Below are positions 5,898 through 49,730 of a stretch of 64,000 nucleotides of DNA, in pieces (within the stretch, counting starts at the first letter, position 1; each line of letters opens with the position of its first letter). Made by a program: the position numbers and the translations under genes. The DNA comes from Flavisolibacter longurius (GTDB lineage: Bacteria; Bacteroidota; Bacteroidia; Chitinophagales; Chitinophagaceae). The notes below the pieces were generated by a model. The model was not told where the DNA came from. It was given only the letters and a program-made list of their open reading frames with translations, and did not search any database. The stretch spans positions 1 to 64,000 of the forward strand of contig JABUMY010000018.1 in NCBI GenBank assembly GCA_013327885.1, read 5' to 3'.

Positions 5898-6983
5898 TTA
5901 CAAAGTGATCAATTGACCTTCCTGCCCGATCCGCTCAAAACCTTCCGCAAGACGCTTGCAGTTGGTATCGGTAATAAAGATTTGCGTTTCGGTATCGCTG
6001 CACACCTGGGCCAACAGGTTGGTGATGCGTTCCTCGTCCAGCTTTTCAAACACATCATCCAGGAGCAGGAGGGGAGAGAAACCTTTTTCCCGTTTAAGAA
6101 TATCCATCTCGGCCAGCTTCAGGGCAAATAACAGGCTTTTGCGTTGCCCCTGCGAGGCAATGCTGCGGAACGTTTGATCTCCCATTTTAAAAAGAAGGTC
6201 ATCGCGGTGAACACCGGCGCTTGTCCGCTGTACCACGGTGTCTTTTTGCCGTGTGATGCGCAGCAGTTCGGCCAGCGAAGCTGTGTGCAGTTCGGAGTCG
6301 TACACCAGCGACATCGGTTCGTCCTGCCCGCTGATCTCGCGGTAACGCCGCTTGGCCAGTGGAAGAAAATCCTGTAGGAAAGCGGCCCGTTTTTGAAACA
6401 CAAGATCACCCTCGCGGGCCAGTTGGCTGTCTAGCACATCCAGCACCGAAAGGTCGCGGCCATACCCATCATGAAGGGAACGCAGAAAAGAATTGCGTTG
6501 CTGCAGGATCTTGGTATAATGAATCAGTGCCTGCAGGTAAAGCGGATCGAGCTGCGAAAGGATGGTGTCGATAAACCGCCGCCTTTCTTCGCTGCCGCCG
6601 ATGATCAGTTCCACATCATCGGGTGCAATGACCACGCAGGGAAAGCGGCCAATGTGTTTCGAAAAACGGCTGTAGGCTTCGTCGTTGAGCGAAAATTCTT
6701 TTTTGCCTGTTTCCCGCAATATGCAAACGGCTTTTTCTTCCTGCCCGTTGAGCTGCAAGTGACCTTCGATACGAAAGCCCTGGCTGCCATGCTTTACATT
6801 GATCGCATCGGTACGACTGAAATAACTTTTGGTAAAACAGAGGTAATGGATCGCATCCAGCAGGTTGGTCTTCCCAGCCCCGTTTCTCCCGCAAATCCCT
6901 ACGATCCGTTTTGTAAACTGGTGCTGTTCAAAATCGTAATTCTTGAACTGGAAGACTGATATGGTGGAGAGAGATAAGGACAA
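5898..6983 (-). CDS. recF: DNA replication and repair protein RecF
   Basis: The 361-residue SMC-like ATPase helps load RecA at gaps through the RecFOR pathway. Walker A is GICGRNGAGKTNLLDAI near residues 28-44. The signature is SQGQRKSLLFALKLAE and Walker B is LLLLDDVFEKLDEER, both in the C-terminal third. Length is normal. The reading frame supports a TTG start, giving MSLSLSTISVFQFKNYDF, which matches the expected short N-terminal strand. A G/T-rich repeat arm overlaps its upstream edge. Confidence 0.93.
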   Translation of the reverse strand: MSLSLSTISVFQFKNYDFEQHQFTKRIVGICGRNGAGKTNLLDAIHYLCFTKSYFSRTDAINVKHGSQGFRIEGHLQLNGQEEKAVCILRETGKKEFSLNDEAYSRFSKHIGRFPCVVIAPDDVELIIGGSEERRRFIDTILSQLDPLYLQALIHYTKILQQRNSFLRSLHDGYGRDLSVLDVLDSQLAREGDLVFQKRAAFLQDFLPLAKRRYREISGQDEPMSLVYDSELHTASLAELLRITRQKDTVVQRTSAGVHRDDLLFKMGDQTFRSIASQGQRKSLLFALKLAEMDILKREKGFSPLLLLDDVFEKLDEERITNLLAQVCSDTETQIFITDTNCKRLAEGFERIGQEGQLITL

Positions 6984-7009
6984 GGTTGAGATTGAGGTTA
7001 AGGTTAAAG
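6982..7009 (+). repeat. G/T-rich left repeat arm beside the four-helix-bundle gene
   Basis: An irregular repeat of AGGTT(A/G)A-like words runs from the recF start codon to the stop of the four-helix-bundle gene. Its imperfect reverse complement is the CCTAAA array at 7403-7430 on the other side of that gene. Confidence 0.5.
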
Positions 7010-7381
7010 TTTGGAAGGTTGGGAAAGGCCTTTGATGATCTTGTTCAATTCTTCTGCCACCTTAAGACATTTTGAATTGACGGATGCTATTTCTTCTTCG
7101 GAATAATAAGCAACCGTAACGCCGGCAAGCAAATGACTTCTCACTTCAAAGCTGCTTCCCCTGGCATAGATGTAGAAATTGATCTTGTCTTTTTGGTGGG
7201 CTCTTCCAAATCCTTCGGCAATGTTCCCGGTAATGCTTACCGCCGCTTCTCTTGTTTGTTCGCGAAGAGAATCATCCTCGGTCCGTGGCAATTTAGCAGT
7301 CAGGGCATACACTTCTTTTACCACTTCGTTTCCCAATTGCCACACAGGCATCTCCGTAAAATCATAATAAGCCATATCCAA
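7004..7381 (-). CDS. Four-helix-bundle protein (S23/bAvd-like)
   Basis: The 125-residue, all-helical product has the family blocks MPVWQLGNEVVKEVYALTAKLP, LREQTREAAVSITGNIAEGFGR and the FYIYARGSSFEVRSHL helix. Relatives are the ORFs inside 23S rRNA intervening sequences and the Avd accessory proteins of diversity-generating retroelements, which bind nucleic acid. Neither a reverse transcriptase nor an rRNA gene is nearby, so this is a stand-alone member of unknown role. It is flanked by a pair of inverted short-period repeats. Confidence 0.85.
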   Translation of the reverse strand: MDMAYYDFTEMPVWQLGNEVVKEVYALTAKLPRTEDDSLREQTREAAVSITGNIAEGFGRAHQKDKINFYIYARGSSFEVRSHLLAGVTVAYYSEEEIASVNSKCLKVAEELNKIIKGLSQPSKL

Positions 7382-7402: not shown

Positions 7403-7430
7403 CTAAACCTAAACCTAAACCTAAACCTAT
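7403..7430. repeat. Telomere-like CCTAAA tandem repeat
   Basis: Four full copies of CCTAAA plus CCTA. Read on the minus strand it is (GGTTTA)n with five GG runs, which could form a two-tetrad G-quadruplex. It begins 4 nt beyond the OsmC stop codon in the direction of OsmC transcription and lies about 20 nt upstream of the four-helix-bundle start. Confidence 0.85.
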
Positions 7431-16876: not shown

Positions 16877-17003
16877 CGTTTGACGTTTGACGTTTGACGT
16901 TTGACGTTTGACGTTTGACGTTTGACGTTTGACGTTTGACGTTTGACGTTTGACGTTTGACGTTTGACGTTTGACGTTTGACGTTTGACGTTTGACGTTT
17001 GAC
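16877..17003 (+). repeat. 7-bp tandem repeat CGTTTGA, about 18 copies
   Basis: An essentially perfect array of CGTTTGA runs for 127 bp. As the unit is 7 bp, three units give a 7-residue repeat in translation (SNVKRQT on the minus strand), explaining a spurious frame. Uniformity implies recent expansion by slippage, so copy number should vary between strains. Confidence 0.95.
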
Positions 17004-17114: not shown

Positions 17115-17125
17115 GAACTATTTTG

Positions 17126-17194
17126 AACCGCAGAGAAAGAGAGGACGCAAAGGGTTTCGCAGCGTCTATTTGTATTCTCTGCGTCTCTGCGGTT
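17126..17194. repeat. Spaced inverted repeat AACCGCAGAGA
   Basis: AACCGCAGAGA at 17126-17136 and its exact reverse complement at 17184-17194 enclose 47 bp. The arms continue as imperfect AGAGG/GCAGAG words. It resembles dispersed CGCAGAG repeats known from several environmental bacteria. Confidence 0.6.
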
Positions 17195-17357
17195 AAATAA
17201 AAAAGCTGAATAGAATTCCCAGCCGTACAAGTGTGCGACGCAACGGATGCTAAATAGAGTTACTGTTGCCGGAAACAGAAAAGAAAAATTTTGTTGAAAA
17301 CAATCAGCAAGAAGGTAGAATGGAATAATTTTAAAATCAATAAACCAGAACAGGATC

Positions 17358-28844: not shown

Positions 28845-30380
28845 TTACCTGAAATCGTCTTCTTCTTCAAATTCGTCGTACGAAGCAGATGACTGTATGT
28901 TGAGCATACTCCCCATGAGGTCTTTAAACTCCACCGAAGTTTCCATGATCTTTTTACTGATCAGGGAATAGGAGGAAAGCCCGTGCAGCACAAATTCCAT
29001 CAGCAGCGCCGCTTCTTTTTCATTTGCATGCGGGAATGTTTTTTTCACCAGGGCATGCAGACCATCCACCTGGTAAAGCTGCGCCATTTTTTCTTTGTCG
29101 CTGGTGCCAAAGAAAAGGTTCAGGTGATTGCCTTTGTCGAACCAAGAGATGATGGAGCGATAAGGATTGTCTACCGGCTGCGGCGTTTCGCCTTTGCGCG
29201 GCGACCGTTTTTTCAAGGTGTCGGGATTGGGAAAATATTGTACAAACTGGCTACGGATCGATTTATCCAACAAATTCATCGCAACCTGGTAGGGACCTTC
29301 CTGCTCACCTTCGTACACCAGTTCAATTTTACCGGTGATGGAAGGAATAATGCCGATCAGGTCCGATATCCAAACCTGGGTTGCTTTCTCTTTGTTTAGG
29401 ATTGCCCTTCTTTCCGCCGCACTGACGGCGTTTTCAAAAGCGGAAATGGTCAGCCTTGCACTCACACCACTTTTCTTGTCAACAAATTCACTGCCTCTCG
29501 CTTCAAACGCAACCTGCTCAATCAGGCGTTTGACAAGGTCGGAAACGGCAACCAATTCTTTCTGGCTTTCTTCCAACCCGGCTTCCTGCTCGGTGATGGC
29601 AAGTGCATTTTCCAGCGACTTGGGATAGTGTGTCAGGATCTGGCTCTGTATCCTGTCCTTCAGCGGCGTTACAATGGAGCCGCGGTTAGTATAATCTTCG
29701 GGGTTAGCCGTAAACACAAACAGGATGTCGAGCGGCAACCGGAGCTTAAAGCCACGTATCTGCACATCGCCTTCTTCCAGGATATTGAAAAGGGCCACCT
29801 GGATACGTGCTTGCAGGTCCGGAAGCTCGTTGATTACAAAAATGCTGCGGTTGCTTTTTGGGATGATGCCATAGTGAATGACCCTTTCGTCGGCAAAACT
29901 CAGGCGCAGGTTCGCTGCCTTAATGGGGTCGATGTCGCCAATAAGGTCGGCAACGCTTACATCCGGAGTGGCCAGCTTTTCGCCGTACCGCTGGCTGCGG
30001 TGCATCCATTCGATGGGTGTGCTGTCACCTTTTTCGTGGATAAGGTCTTTGGAATATTTGGAGATTGGCTTTAGCGGATCATCGTTGATCTCACTGCCGG
30101 CAATCACGGGGATGTATTCATCCAGCAACTCCGTCATTTGTCGTGCCATACGGGTTTTAGCCTGTCCGCGCAGCCCCAAAAAAAGAATATTGTGCTTGCT
30201 CAGCAAGGCCCTTTCCACATCCGGTATCACGGTTTCTTCGTAACCGATAATGCCATTAAAGGTTTCTTCTTTCTTTTTTAATTTTTGAATTAGATTTTGC
30301 CTGATCTCTTCTTTGATGCTCCTGGGTTGATAACCTGACTCTTTTAATTCGCCAAGGGTGTTGATATGTTTGATGTCCAT
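28845..30380 (-). CDS. MoxR/magnesium-chelatase-like AAA+ ATPase
   Basis: The 511-residue ATPase has Walker A LGLRGQAKTRMAR near residue 70 and a Walker B-like segment SIFVINELPDL, in which Asn takes the usual Asp place, as I recall for this subfamily. VFTANPEDYTNRGSIVTPLKDR holds sensor 1. The C-terminal half is helical and ends in an acidic tail. The start MDIKHIN at 30380 avoids overlap with the GxxExxY gene. A VWA protein lies on the same strand beyond that insertion. Such pairs work as ATPase plus metal-dependent adaptor, as in metal chelatases or complex remodelling; the client is unknown. Confidence 0.85.
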   Translation of the reverse strand: MDIKHINTLGELKESGYQPRSIKEEIRQNLIQKLKKKEETFNGIIGYEETVIPDVERALLSKHNILFLGLRGQAKTRMARQMTELLDEYIPVIAGSEINDDPLKPISKYSKDLIHEKGDSTPIEWMHRSQRYGEKLATPDVSVADLIGDIDPIKAANLRLSFADERVIHYGIIPKSNRSIFVINELPDLQARIQVALFNILEEGDVQIRGFKLRLPLDILFVFTANPEDYTNRGSIVTPLKDRIQSQILTHYPKSLENALAITEQEAGLEESQKELVAVSDLVKRLIEQVAFEARGSEFVDKKSGVSARLTISAFENAVSAAERRAILNKEKATQVWISDLIGIIPSITGKIELVYEGEQEGPYQVAMNLLDKSIRSQFVQYFPNPDTLKKRSPRKGETPQPVDNPYRSIISWFDKGNHLNLFFGTSDKEKMAQLYQVDGLHALVKKTFPHANEKEAALLMEFVLHGLSSYSLISKKIMETSVEFKDLMGSMLNIQSSASYDEFEEEDDFR

Positions 30381-30394
30381 AATTTTTTCTTTTG

Positions 30395-30416
30395 CCGGGA
30401 AGGCGGAAAGACGTTT
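30395..30416 (+). repeat. Left inverted repeat of the GxxExxY cassette
   Basis: This 22-nt sequence matches the reverse complement of 30825-30846 at 19 of 22 positions (core AAGGCG...AAGACGTTT). It lies between the AAA+ start and the GxxExxY stop. Confidence 0.75.
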
Positions 30417-30424
30417 AAATAATT

Positions 30425-30814
30425 TTATTCCATACAATATCGCCTGATACCGTTTTTAATTTGAGATACATTAAAATTTATGACAAAACCAACATGGTTG
30501 CCAGTCAGTTTTAAATGACTTAAAACATGTGCCTGCCATAATGGATTTACATTTTCCACTGCATTTAGTTCACAAATAATTCTTTTTTCCACCAATACGT
30601 CAATTCTCAATCCTCCATCAAATACAAGGTTGTCGTAAAGAATAGGCAAGGCTTTTTGTCGTTCAAAGCTTATCTCCTTTTTTGTTAGTTCATGACAAAA
30701 ACAGGTTTCGTAAATTTTTTCCAGTAAACCGGGCCCCAGTTGCTTGTGTACAAGGTAGGCGCAGTCAACTAATTCTTTACAAAGATTTTCTTCAAATGCA
30801 GTCAGTGTGTACAT
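30425..30814 (-). CDS. GxxExxY protein (PD-(D/E)XK-like)
   Basis: The 129-residue protein contains the eponymous motif GPGLLEKIYETCF near residue 26. DVLVEKRIICELNAVENV is the candidate nuclease strand, with the D...ExN arrangement of the PD-(D/E)XK fold. LWQAHVLSHLKLTGNHVGFVINFN completes the family pattern. The function is unknown. It sits alone between two genes that otherwise form an AAA+/VWA unit, is AT-richer than both neighbours by eye, and is bracketed by 22-nt inverted repeats. It therefore looks like an inserted cassette. Confidence 0.88.
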   Translation of the reverse strand: MYTLTAFEENLCKELVDCAYLVHKQLGPGLLEKIYETCFCHELTKKEISFERQKALPILYDNLVFDGGLRIDVLVEKRIICELNAVENVNPLWQAHVLSHLKLTGNHVGFVINFNVSQIKNGIRRYCME

Positions 30815-30824
30815 AAAAAAATCA

Positions 30825-30846
30825 AAACGTCTTATCGCCTTACCGG
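30825..30846 (-). repeat. Right inverted repeat of the GxxExxY cassette
   Basis: The inverted partner of 30395-30416 (19 of 22 identical), placed between the GxxExxY start and the VWA stop. Confidence 0.75.
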
Positions 30847-30850
30847 CTAA

Positions 30851-31948
30851 TCAATAAACCGTTTTTCGTTTGCCACTTTCAAAATCACGGAAGATAAAAG
30901 CACCCAGCCTGTCCAGTGAAGCAAAATAAGCTTTGCCATTATTGGTTTCGGTGAACTCCTGTACAAACCGCTGCAGGTAAGGGTCCGTTGCGATCATAAA
31001 AGTGGTGATCGGGATCTTCAGCTTTTTGCATTGGGCGGCAAGGTTGATACAGCGGTTGGTTACTTTCCTGTCCAACCCGAAACTGTTTTTATAATAGCGC
31101 TTGCCGATCTTCAGGCAAGTAGGCTTGCCATCGGTGATCATGAAGATTTGCTTGTTAGGATTTTTCCGCCGCCGCAAAATATCCATGGCCAGTTCCAGCC
31201 CGGCTACCGTATTGGTATGATAAGGACCAACCTGCAGATAGGGCAGGTCTTTGATCTCTACCGGCCAGGCATCGTTGCCAAAAACAACAATATCCAGCGT
31301 GTCTTTTGGGTATTTGGTGGTGATAAGTTCACTCAGCGCCATGGCCACTTTCTTGGCCGGCGTAATACGGTCTTCACCGTAAAGGATCATGGAGTGGGAG
31401 ATGTCGATCATCAGCACAGTAGAGGTCTGCGATTTAAAATCCGTTTCGCGAATCTGCAGGTCATCTTCCTGCATCGTAAAGGAGTCCAGTCCGTGGTTGA
31501 TCTGCGCATTGCGAATCGATTCGGTAAAATCGATCTGCTCCAGCATATCGCCAAACTGGAATGGCCTTGTGTCCGGACTGACCTCGTCGCCTTGTCCCGG
31601 TTTAAAGGTCTGGTGATCGCCGGTCTTCGTTTTTTTCAGCTTGCCAAAAATTTCTTCCAGGCTGCGTTTGCGAATGCCCTGTTCTGTTTTGGGTGTGATC
31701 TTGATCTCGCCGTTTTGTGCATCATCGGTGATATAGCCTTTTTCCTTCAACTCCTCGATAAAATCACCCATTCCGTATTCATCGTCGGTAAGCTCGTATT
31801 TTTTGTCCAGCTCATTGAGCCATTGCATGGCTTCGCTCACATCGCCACTTGTATAAGTGAGAAGCTGGGTGAAAAGATCCAGCAACTGGTCAAATTTTGA
31901 TTTGCCGCTTTGCCGTGGATCATATTTTGTAAAATGAAAACCAATCAT
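30851..31948 (-). CDS. VWA-domain protein, partner of the AAA+ ATPase
   Basis: The 365-residue protein has a charged helical N-terminal half and a von Willebrand A domain in the C-terminal half. The metal-ion site is complete: DISHS (DxSxS), a threonine in PYHTNTVAG, and MITDGKPT. The start MIGFHFTKYDPRQSGKSKF at 31948 is natural; the longer frame upstream only reads through repeat sequence. No signal peptide or membrane segment is present. It precedes the AAA+ ATPase in transcription and probably binds its client; the GxxExxY cassette now lies between them. Confidence 0.85.
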   Translation of the reverse strand: MIGFHFTKYDPRQSGKSKFDQLLDLFTQLLTYTSGDVSEAMQWLNELDKKYELTDDEYGMGDFIEELKEKGYITDDAQNGEIKITPKTEQGIRKRSLEEIFGKLKKTKTGDHQTFKPGQGDEVSPDTRPFQFGDMLEQIDFTESIRNAQINHGLDSFTMQEDDLQIRETDFKSQTSTVLMIDISHSMILYGEDRITPAKKVAMALSELITTKYPKDTLDIVVFGNDAWPVEIKDLPYLQVGPYHTNTVAGLELAMDILRRRKNPNKQIFMITDGKPTCLKIGKRYYKNSFGLDRKVTNRCINLAAQCKKLKIPITTFMIATDPYLQRFVQEFTETNNGKAYFASLDRLGAFIFRDFESGKRKTVY

Positions 31949-31985
31949 AGGAAAAGTTTTAGTGAAACGCCAGGGGTCAGCTGTT

Positions 31986-32100
31986 AGACGAGAAAGGTGA
32001 AACAGGGAAGCCGTTCGTGCCAACTTTAGTGACAACTTGTGTATTGATTCATTCAATTTCTCCCGTCTCTCATTTCACGTTTTTTGTTTCTCGTCTCACG
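31986..32100. repeat. Inverted G/A-rich and C/T-rich arms upstream of the VWA gene
   Basis: AGACGAGAAA (31986-31995) is the exact reverse complement of TTTCTCGTCT (32087-32096). Flanking GTGAAA/TTTCAC words extend the match imperfectly. Right-arm words such as CGTCTCTCATTTCACG are internally repetitive. The arms enclose about 60-90 bp without a gene. The pair fills most of the gap between the VWA and DUF2723 genes. Confidence 0.6.
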
Positions 32101-49488: not shown

Positions 49489-49730
49489 GGTTGGTTGGTT
49501 GATAAGTTAATAGGTTGATAAGTGTTAAATGGTTGACTGGAAGGATTGTATTGAAAACCGTCTTTTTTCGACTAAAAAGAGGAGCTCTCAAAAGGGTTTT
49601 AAACGCAATGAGACTTGCCAATTTGCAAACAATCTGCATCACCTGTTAGAATAAAAAGAGGCTGTCTCGGACTTTCGGGACAGCCTCTTTCACTTATTAA
49701 CTTATCAACCAATCAACCTATCGACTTGCC
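49489..49730. repeat. Long inverted repeat spanning the traB-like/ndk gap
   Basis: TTGGTTGATAAGTTAATA at 49495-49512 and its exact reverse complement at 49695-49712 form an 18-bp perfect inverted repeat. Imperfect extensions reach both stop codons. The enclosed 182 nt contain a terminator. Both arms are built from the words GGTTGATAAG and GGTTGGTTGG. Confidence 0.85.
49653..49690 (+). terminator. Terminator between the traB-like gene and ndk
   Basis: AAAGAGGCTGTCT pairs with the matching AGACAGCCTCTTT-type 3' strand (GACAGCCTCTTT). Five A residues precede it. It sits in the loop of the larger inverted repeat and can act on both convergent genes. Confidence 0.8.

Follow-up and report, generated by a model that had tools for sequence, protein, structure and literature searches.

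A small gene of the GxxExxY family in Flavisolibacter longurius lies between a gene for a VWA-domain protein and a gene for an AAA+ protein and is enclosed by inverted repeats. To our knowledge, the nuclease-like GxxExxY family has no assigned role, and the arrangement raises the question of whether the gene and its repeats form an element that disperses as a unit. An earlier note on the 64,000-nucleotide stretch of contig analysed here (hereafter the window) had suggested that the gene moves in this way.

Results

Inverted arms around the GxxExxY gene

The earlier note had described inverted repeats matching at 19 of 22 positions around a gene that lies between AAA+ and VWA genes of the same direction. 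Both observations hold: the segment 30394-30415 and the reverse complement of 30826-30847 agree at 19 of 22 positions, and all three genes are read from the minus strand (Table 1). The 22-nt repeat belongs, as its core, to a longer inverted pair of 46 nt with 35 matching positions, whose VWA-side arm crosses the VWA stop codon and extends to the GxxExxY start codon.

Table 1. Coordinates in the window of the GxxExxY gene, its arms, the adjoining genes and an S23 gene with comparable flanks
Feature	Position	Strand	Remarks
S23 gene (PF05635)	7004-7375	-	inverted AGGTTTAGG-type arms 6983-7005 / 7406-7428
AAA+ gene, downstream	28845-30380	-	PF07728, 29.1 bits; host gene of the junction
Arm, AAA+ side (3' of the GxxExxY gene)	30383-30428	+	class D; core 30394-30415; 35/46 matches
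GxxExxY gene	30425-30814	-	129 aa; PD-(D/E)XK family; matches to TIGR04256 and PF13366
Arm, VWA side (5' of the GxxExxY gene)	30813-30858	-	core 30826-30847; overlaps the VWA stop codon
VWA-domain gene, upstream	30851-31948	-	PF13519, 38.6 bits; host gene of the junction

When two 90-nt segments were held at the spacing found at the gene and moved along the 64 kb in steps of 20 nt, the score of the window arms (37) was reached by 1 of 3165 equally spaced placements, and the runner-up, with a score of 26, fell at the S23 gene near 7 kb. A scan of 124 kb of the contig covered 94 ORFs of 120 aa or longer, and four of them have inverted flanks above all 40 shuffles: the window GxxExxY gene, a second GxxExxY gene, an S23 gene and an ORF without Pfam match, the last being probably spurious. 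The arms often stand just behind stop codons, as ordinary transcription terminators would, and this reading, or that of chance complementarity, was considered; we regard both as barely credible. The single terminator-like site within 30300-31000, at 30916-30936, lies outside the arms, and an Rfam scan of 12 loci returned nothing but a tRNA gene beside one hairpin, which disfavours terminators; chance is ruled out by the shuffles, the control genes described below and the 3165 placements, and the same unit recurs in many phyla.

The encoded protein is probably an inactivated nuclease

In profile searches the window protein scores 123.3 bits against TIGR04256 (cut-off 35) and 118.8 bits against PF13366, PDDEXK_3 (cut-off 22), and thus exceeds the curated GxxExxY score as a plain member of the family. 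PDDEXK_3 is the sole family that it matches, and it does not qualify as a Y1 (HUH) tyrosine transposase. The assignment of GxxExxY to the PD-(D/E)XK superfamily comes from Pfam. The structure was predicted with a mean pLDDT of 96, and VIA-align places the model closest to the Cas4-like SSO0001 (Z 9.2 over 101 residues, 4.5 Å), followed by a Wolbachia CinB chain (8.1), BglII (7.5) and the Holliday junction resolvase Hjc, 1gef (7.2), where values under about 8 perhaps indicate a shared arrangement only and a family missing from the list is not thereby ruled out. Foldseek gave nothing at E <= 0.001 against the PDB (best E 0.044, with lambda exonuclease and SSO0001 in the top ranks), and a PDB sequence search retrieved no relative of the protein (best E 0.22).

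An alignment of 48 GxxExxY proteins revealed that E32 and D72 are invariant (48/48), while E82 and K84 are each conserved in 47 proteins and Q96 in 46; these residues may resemble the RecB/Cas4 type with a QxxxY motif. The family overall keeps a complete PD-(D/E)XK active site, which is incomplete in the window copy: this copy has N84 in place of K (codon AAT), alone among the 48 proteins, and H96 in place of Q (codon CAT), and is therefore probably inactive. We propose that it is probably a nuclease relic that has lost its active site, judging from these substitutions, and a decayed, perhaps long-resident example of the element.

The VWA/AAA+ junction in relatives

The junction was surveyed in 58 genomes, 47 of which have a VWA match, and 30 loci were compared, L014 and L036 among them not being assessable. 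The earlier note had suggested looking in related genomes for AAA+/VWA loci free of the insert, and such loci prevail: 22 of the 30 have a spacer of 11-264 nt without GxxExxY gene, several of these spacers carrying gene-less quasi-tandem repeats, and they include the three loci of highest VWA identity, with gene-less spacers of 40, 32 and 34 nt. The subfamily of the window copy occupies the junction at three loci (L009, which is the window itself, L021 and L028), a different GxxExxY subfamily with other arms is found at L020, and other ORFs fill the junction at L013 and L031. The window subfamily with class D arms is also present at the junction of L039, from a member of the Chitinophagaceae, while L040 (Parafilimonas terrae) has the same DNA sequence as L028, so that four species carry this subfamily at the same place. 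The arms of L028 are of a CACAAAG-like class, unlike those of the window.

Two of these loci show further features. In L031 (G029), two small ORFs downstream of VWA resemble a toxin-antitoxin pair by eye and have a class-D-like repeat on one side only; in L028 (G023), the GxxExxY gene is preceded by a tandem array of three gene-less hairpin units, ~95 nt each.

Among the matches listed, the closest GxxExxY relatives of the window copy (71% and 67%) sit at the VWA/AAA+ junction of other species. At L021, L028/L040 and L039, a GxxExxY identity of 67-71% stands beside a VWA identity of 83-90%, which would point to a GxxExxY gene that evolves faster than its neighbours. Because the same subfamily recurs at the same junction in other species, the order of the three genes could be long established in the family, with frequent loss of the GxxExxY gene. 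If gene and arms were ancestral here and lost many times, their presence or absence would be uninformative on movement, and we give this account of the window site an even chance. The recurrence of the subfamily at L021, L028/L040 and L039 and the decay of the window copy argue for it. On the other side, the VWA tree, which leaves out L039 and L040, requires a minimum of three separate gains, as against about 13 losses by our own count under a single origin; L020 carries another subfamily and other arms, and L028 arms of another class. The account bears on the window site alone and leaves the general pattern untouched.

A recent insertion at the window site is not provable, since the spacers of the relatives do not align and the subfamily is resident in other species. 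For the same reason of alignment no target-site duplication is readable, and the gene-less copies likewise have no readable one. The proposal that the gene moves as a small unit is thus sustained in so far as gene and arms are present or absent as a block, but an inward move of the window copy is not supported. The earlier note had held that the cassette idea would fail if the gene order were ancestral and the repeats absent in relatives; an ancestral order is possible, but the repeats are not absent, for the GxxExxY copies of the relatives have arms as well.

The architecture recurs across phyla

To place the window copy among its relatives, 118 GxxExxY loci were assembled: the best 80 of 551 relatives, which are genome-contig loci found by a search through the GxxExxY motif itself, the eight of the window's genome and 30 from Bacteroidota, these last, like the 30 Bacteroidota S23 loci used below, being among the best-scoring and not a random sample. 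Inverted flanks exceed all 60 dinucleotide shuffles at 92 of the 118 loci, from many phyla, and at none of 27 VWA control genes (three shorter ones of the 30 loci were omitted). The remaining 26 do not exceed their own shuffles, and 36 of the 118 exceed them as direct repeats. Mismatched flank pairs were also tried as a null (95th percentile 34, 99th 42, true median 35.5) and 26 of 88 loci reached the 99th percentile; this null was dropped as too strict because the motif is common to many genomes, and shuffles and control genes were used instead. Broken GxxExxY frames were met at 6 of the 88 loci of the first survey.

The arms consist of quasi-tandem units of about 8 nt. At 89 of the 92 armed loci (three with broken frames were omitted), labels assigned by crude regular expressions were CACNRAG in 56 cases, CGCNRAG in 18, CAACGG or CGACGG in 4 and others in 11. 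Arm similarity correlates with protein identity (r 0.355, 0 of 2000 permutations), and does so equally when only between-phylum pairs are considered (n = 1946, r 0.353, 0 of 3000 permutations with arms permuted within phylum; 88 loci, one of uncertain phylum omitted), phylum labels being read off the record titles and Ignavibacteria and Chlorobi placed with Bacteroidota. Shared ancestry of the hosts is not an easy explanation for a covariation that extends between phyla. The nearest protein neighbour has the same label in 62 of the 89 cases, as against a permutation maximum of 59, and outside the main arm class in 14 of 33 only.

Seven records are plasmid-borne copies, that of a Bacteroides finegoldii plasmid lying between radA and the gene for an FAD-dependent protein; these copies yielded no pair with an empty site. 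At L330 (G280:C122) the GxxExxY match is part of a 565-aa open frame that may represent a fusion or a long read-through frame.

S23 genes share the architecture, since 19 of the 30 Bacteroidota S23 loci exceed all shuffles. Two of the 30 (L229, L230) have arms of the CACAAAG class otherwise typical of GxxExxY, and arm classes can therefore be common to both gene families.

Both kinds of gene tend to lie in the sense of the longest upstream open frame, as seen for 92 of 110 assessable GxxExxY loci and 35 of 38 S23 loci, compared with 56 of the 92 ordinary ORFs scored on this contig. This bias would reflect selection for read-through expression or an insertion tied to transcription. It would also be expected if the arms acted in RNA, pairing in the transcript and being processed (e.g. 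by RNase III) as in 23S rRNA intervening sequences, a reading that we hold to be improbable. Its extension, by which such processing would make the element tolerable inside operons and let it spread at or through the RNA level, seems to us just as improbable. The window arms do pair with each other in the predicted fold of the transcript, and S23 is the protein of rRNA intervening sequences, whose stem-forming ends are cut by RNase III according to the available part of PMC4990558. The sense bias is, however, equally expected from a need for read-through transcription, and the gene-less hairpins described below, together with the predicted nuclease fold, indicate DNA.

Other elements of the same genome

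The genome of the window holds eight PF13366 genes, and the inverted flanks of seven exceed all 60 shuffles, the exception being L004. Their arm classes, named by eye, are the CGCAGAG type (L001, L002), the CACAAAG type (L003, L006), the TGAACTGnGAT type (L004, L005), the ACGAATT type (L007) and the GCCGGTAAGGCG type of the window copy. With at most two mismatches, the class D arm of the window has 12 matches in this genome, including both arms of the window copy, where the reversed control has 1, and 11 matches in G028, where it has 0; the background is not nil, because the reversed control reaches 7 in other genomes. Gene-less inverted pairs occur among the class D matches (L258-L262), and the two further pairs examined in the window's genome, L258 and L259, are of this kind. 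The earlier note had asked whether other copies of the 22-nt repeat flank GxxExxY genes: further arm copies are present, but the pairs L258 and L259 enclose no gene and the remaining GxxExxY genes of this genome carry arms of other classes.

The same genome has ten PF05635 (S23, 23S rRNA IVP) genes, eight of which, as judged by eye, have arms made of other quasi-tandem units about 7-8 nt long. The site of the 7-kb S23 gene is occupied in G006 by an S23 gene that is very different and whose arms are different too. The junction of L003 holds a GxxExxY gene in the window's genome and in G009, an S23 gene with other arms in G006, and in G003 a spacer of about 70 nt without element. G006 and the window's genome have about 80% DNA identity, and where the two share a site with a gene-less hairpin, the hairpin is of a different class in each. 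Since the arm classes of the two genomes differ at shared sites and elements are swapped there, both arms turn over together at one site; such joint turnover may be replacement by new insertions or concerted change.

Other repeats were recorded in these two genomes. Intergenic gene-less inverted repeats of other classes lie at 17119-17199, 31983-32099 and 49501-49722 of the window, and G006 has repeats of different classes at the matching sites. A perfect heptamer microsatellite (CGTTTGA x18, 16877-17003), with a unit as long as those of S23 arms, lies beside a gene-less hairpin. A GGTGAGT-type gene-less hairpin (e.g. L203, G006:C21), of the class of the S23 gene L124, occurs in many places of G006 and accounts for most of its 31 matches in the L003-junction search.

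Eight Y1 transposase matches of the window's genome (L129-L136) served as positive control for flank scoring, and five have REP-like palindromic inverted flanks scoring at least 50, with sequences different from the GxxExxY arms. These RAYTs were considered as movers of the hairpins and set aside, as their repeats differ, although they could still be supplied in trans.

Gene-less repeats accompany the gene

The earlier note had called the family widespread, and indeed PF13366 is found in 101 of 198 sampled Bacteroidota genomes as well as in many other phyla. One class of repeat, the pattern CCACNRAGRCACNRAG, was counted in these genomes, matches beside the genes themselves included. Carriers of PF13366 (101 genomes) account for 221 matches and the 97 genomes lacking it for 4, while the reversed control pattern has 9 and 14, respectively. 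At least two matches occur in 23 of the 101 genomes with the gene and in none of the 97 without (P = 0.003 with genome family held fixed). S23 genes are present in 157 of the 198 genomes, and among genomes bearing S23 the corresponding figures are 23 of 94 with GxxExxY and 0 of 63 without. Fewer than two matches were counted in 78 of the 101 carriers, including all 7 that have GxxExxY but no S23. In 32 carrier genomes of other phyla, the pattern has 719 matches on one strand and 760 on the other, compared with 23 for the reversed control, and 25 of the 32 have at least one.

G256, the genome of L067, contains compact gene-less hairpins of 50-60 nt flanked by unrelated sequence; L314 is a GxxExxY-bearing relative, matched in pieces only, with arms of like kind. 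A gene-less unit occupies eight places (L248-L255) in G258, the genome of L078, and retains both termini of a GxxExxY gene that is intact in L264; L256 has another deletion. The GxxExxY units of G258 (L286-L305) are nested in larger dispersed repeats with the ends GGGTGTGCGTCAAA / TTTGACGCACACCC and CCCTAACCCGGACGAGCC / TTGTCAGATACTAA, and the partly deleted copies of the second G258 family are likewise inside a larger repeat. The multiplication of repeats in G258 was abandoned as a clean proof of autonomous movement when wider flanks revealed the larger nesting repeats; the deletions inside the gene are real despite the nesting.

These data bear on the main rival, in which the hairpins themselves move or convert through a host process or another enzyme and GxxExxY and S23 are passengers of the loop; S23 would have to be a passenger if it lacks its own mechanism. 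Two unrelated families of small proteins share one architecture, GxxExxY (in the window's genome and G009) and S23 (in G006) substitute for each other at one junction, the class of gene-less hairpins differs between the window's genome and G006 at the same sites, and the GxxExxY units of G258 lie inside larger repeats with other ends, all of which a passenger would allow. Still, arm class tracks the GxxExxY protein across phyla, the repeat tracks GxxExxY and not S23 across genomes, and the RAYTs of the window's genome have different repeats. We consider the passenger explanation rather unlikely.

Discussion

We propose that the window copy is a member of a widespread, hairpin-bounded dispersed element working like REP/RAYT, a proposal to which we assign about equal weight for and against. 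The element would consist of one GxxExxY ORF between two inverted arms of ~8-nt quasi-tandem units, with gene-less hairpins of matching arm class dispersed elsewhere. The PD-(D/E)XK protein may bind the arm units and cut the hairpin, in extruded or single-stranded form, and host replication and repair would then help to copy the hairpin-bounded DNA, with or without the gene, or to re-insert it at intergenic positions. The ORF would rely on transcription of its operon, whence the sense orientation. Arms, generality, covariation, the coupling of repeat and gene, dispersed gene-less hairpins and element-free sites count for this element, as do the sense orientation, the conserved PD-(D/E)XK residues of the alignment and, as far as a confident model may tell, nuclease-like nearest folds. 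Against it we count that S23 genes share the architecture, and at L229 and L230 even the CACAAAG class, yet encode no nuclease, that the subfamily of the window copy looks resident at its junction, that Foldseek gave no PDB match at E <= 0.001, the 26 of 118 loci that stay within their shuffles, the 36 of 118 that exceed theirs as direct repeats, the 78 of 101 carriers with fewer than two matches, the nesting in G258 and the label agreement of 14 of 33.

RAYT ORFs, in the available part of PMC2817692, are flanked by inverted REPs with which they coevolve, their presence correlates with repeat abundance, and the gene evolves rapidly. Similarly, the GxxExxY ORF lies between inverted palindromic repeats (92 of 118 loci), repeat and protein vary in concert, the repeat is more abundant where the gene is present (for the one class counted), and gene-less repeats are scattered between genes. 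However, GxxExxY is a putative PD-(D/E)XK nuclease whereas RAYT is a Y1/HUH transposase, the arms consist of quasi-tandem ~8-nt units, and they differ from the repeats of the RAYTs in the same genome. By analogy, the best-supported reading is a hairpin-directed nuclease system that would work like REP/RAYT and not be a member of it.

The 23S rRNA intervening sequences offer a second comparison, for they too have a small ORF within a long terminal inverted repeat, and the S23 genes of the window's genome also have the hairpin architecture; the accessible text of PMC4990558 further reports tandem heptamers beside their ORF. The window element, in contrast, lies between the protein genes VWA and AAA+ and not in rRNA, and GxxExxY, with its predicted nuclease fold, is unrelated to S23, a four-helix protein. 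The gene-less hairpins resemble MITEs, some being internal deletions of the gene-bearing form, but no transposase parent was found and no target-site duplication is readable. In the open-access literature searched, the family name GxxExxY is mentioned in PMC8934634 and PMC12085832, once in each, and we found no account of its hairpin setting there, most subscription journals and bioRxiv preprints lying outside the search.

A wider claim, which we put forward tentatively and with less than even confidence, is that GxxExxY proteins drive a so far unrecognised class of transposable element in >10 phyla, with the CACNRAG palindromes as its offspring and S23 as a parallel class. If so, dispersal would require no more than one PD-(D/E)XK nuclease and a hairpin built of quasi-tandem units, and mobile DNA could run on such a nuclease with no transposase; the many CACNRAG palindromes between genes of environmental genomes would be non-autonomous offspring, and rRNA intervening sequences a special case of the same phenomenon as the S23 and GxxExxY elements. 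The link with S23 bears on how rRNA intervening sequences arose and spread, and the tie between GxxExxY and abundant intergenic palindromes gives a testable function to the family and to the palindromes alike. Taken together, the usual placement of GxxExxY genes between mirror-image repeats that also occur without the gene suggests an undescribed kind of small dispersed DNA element.
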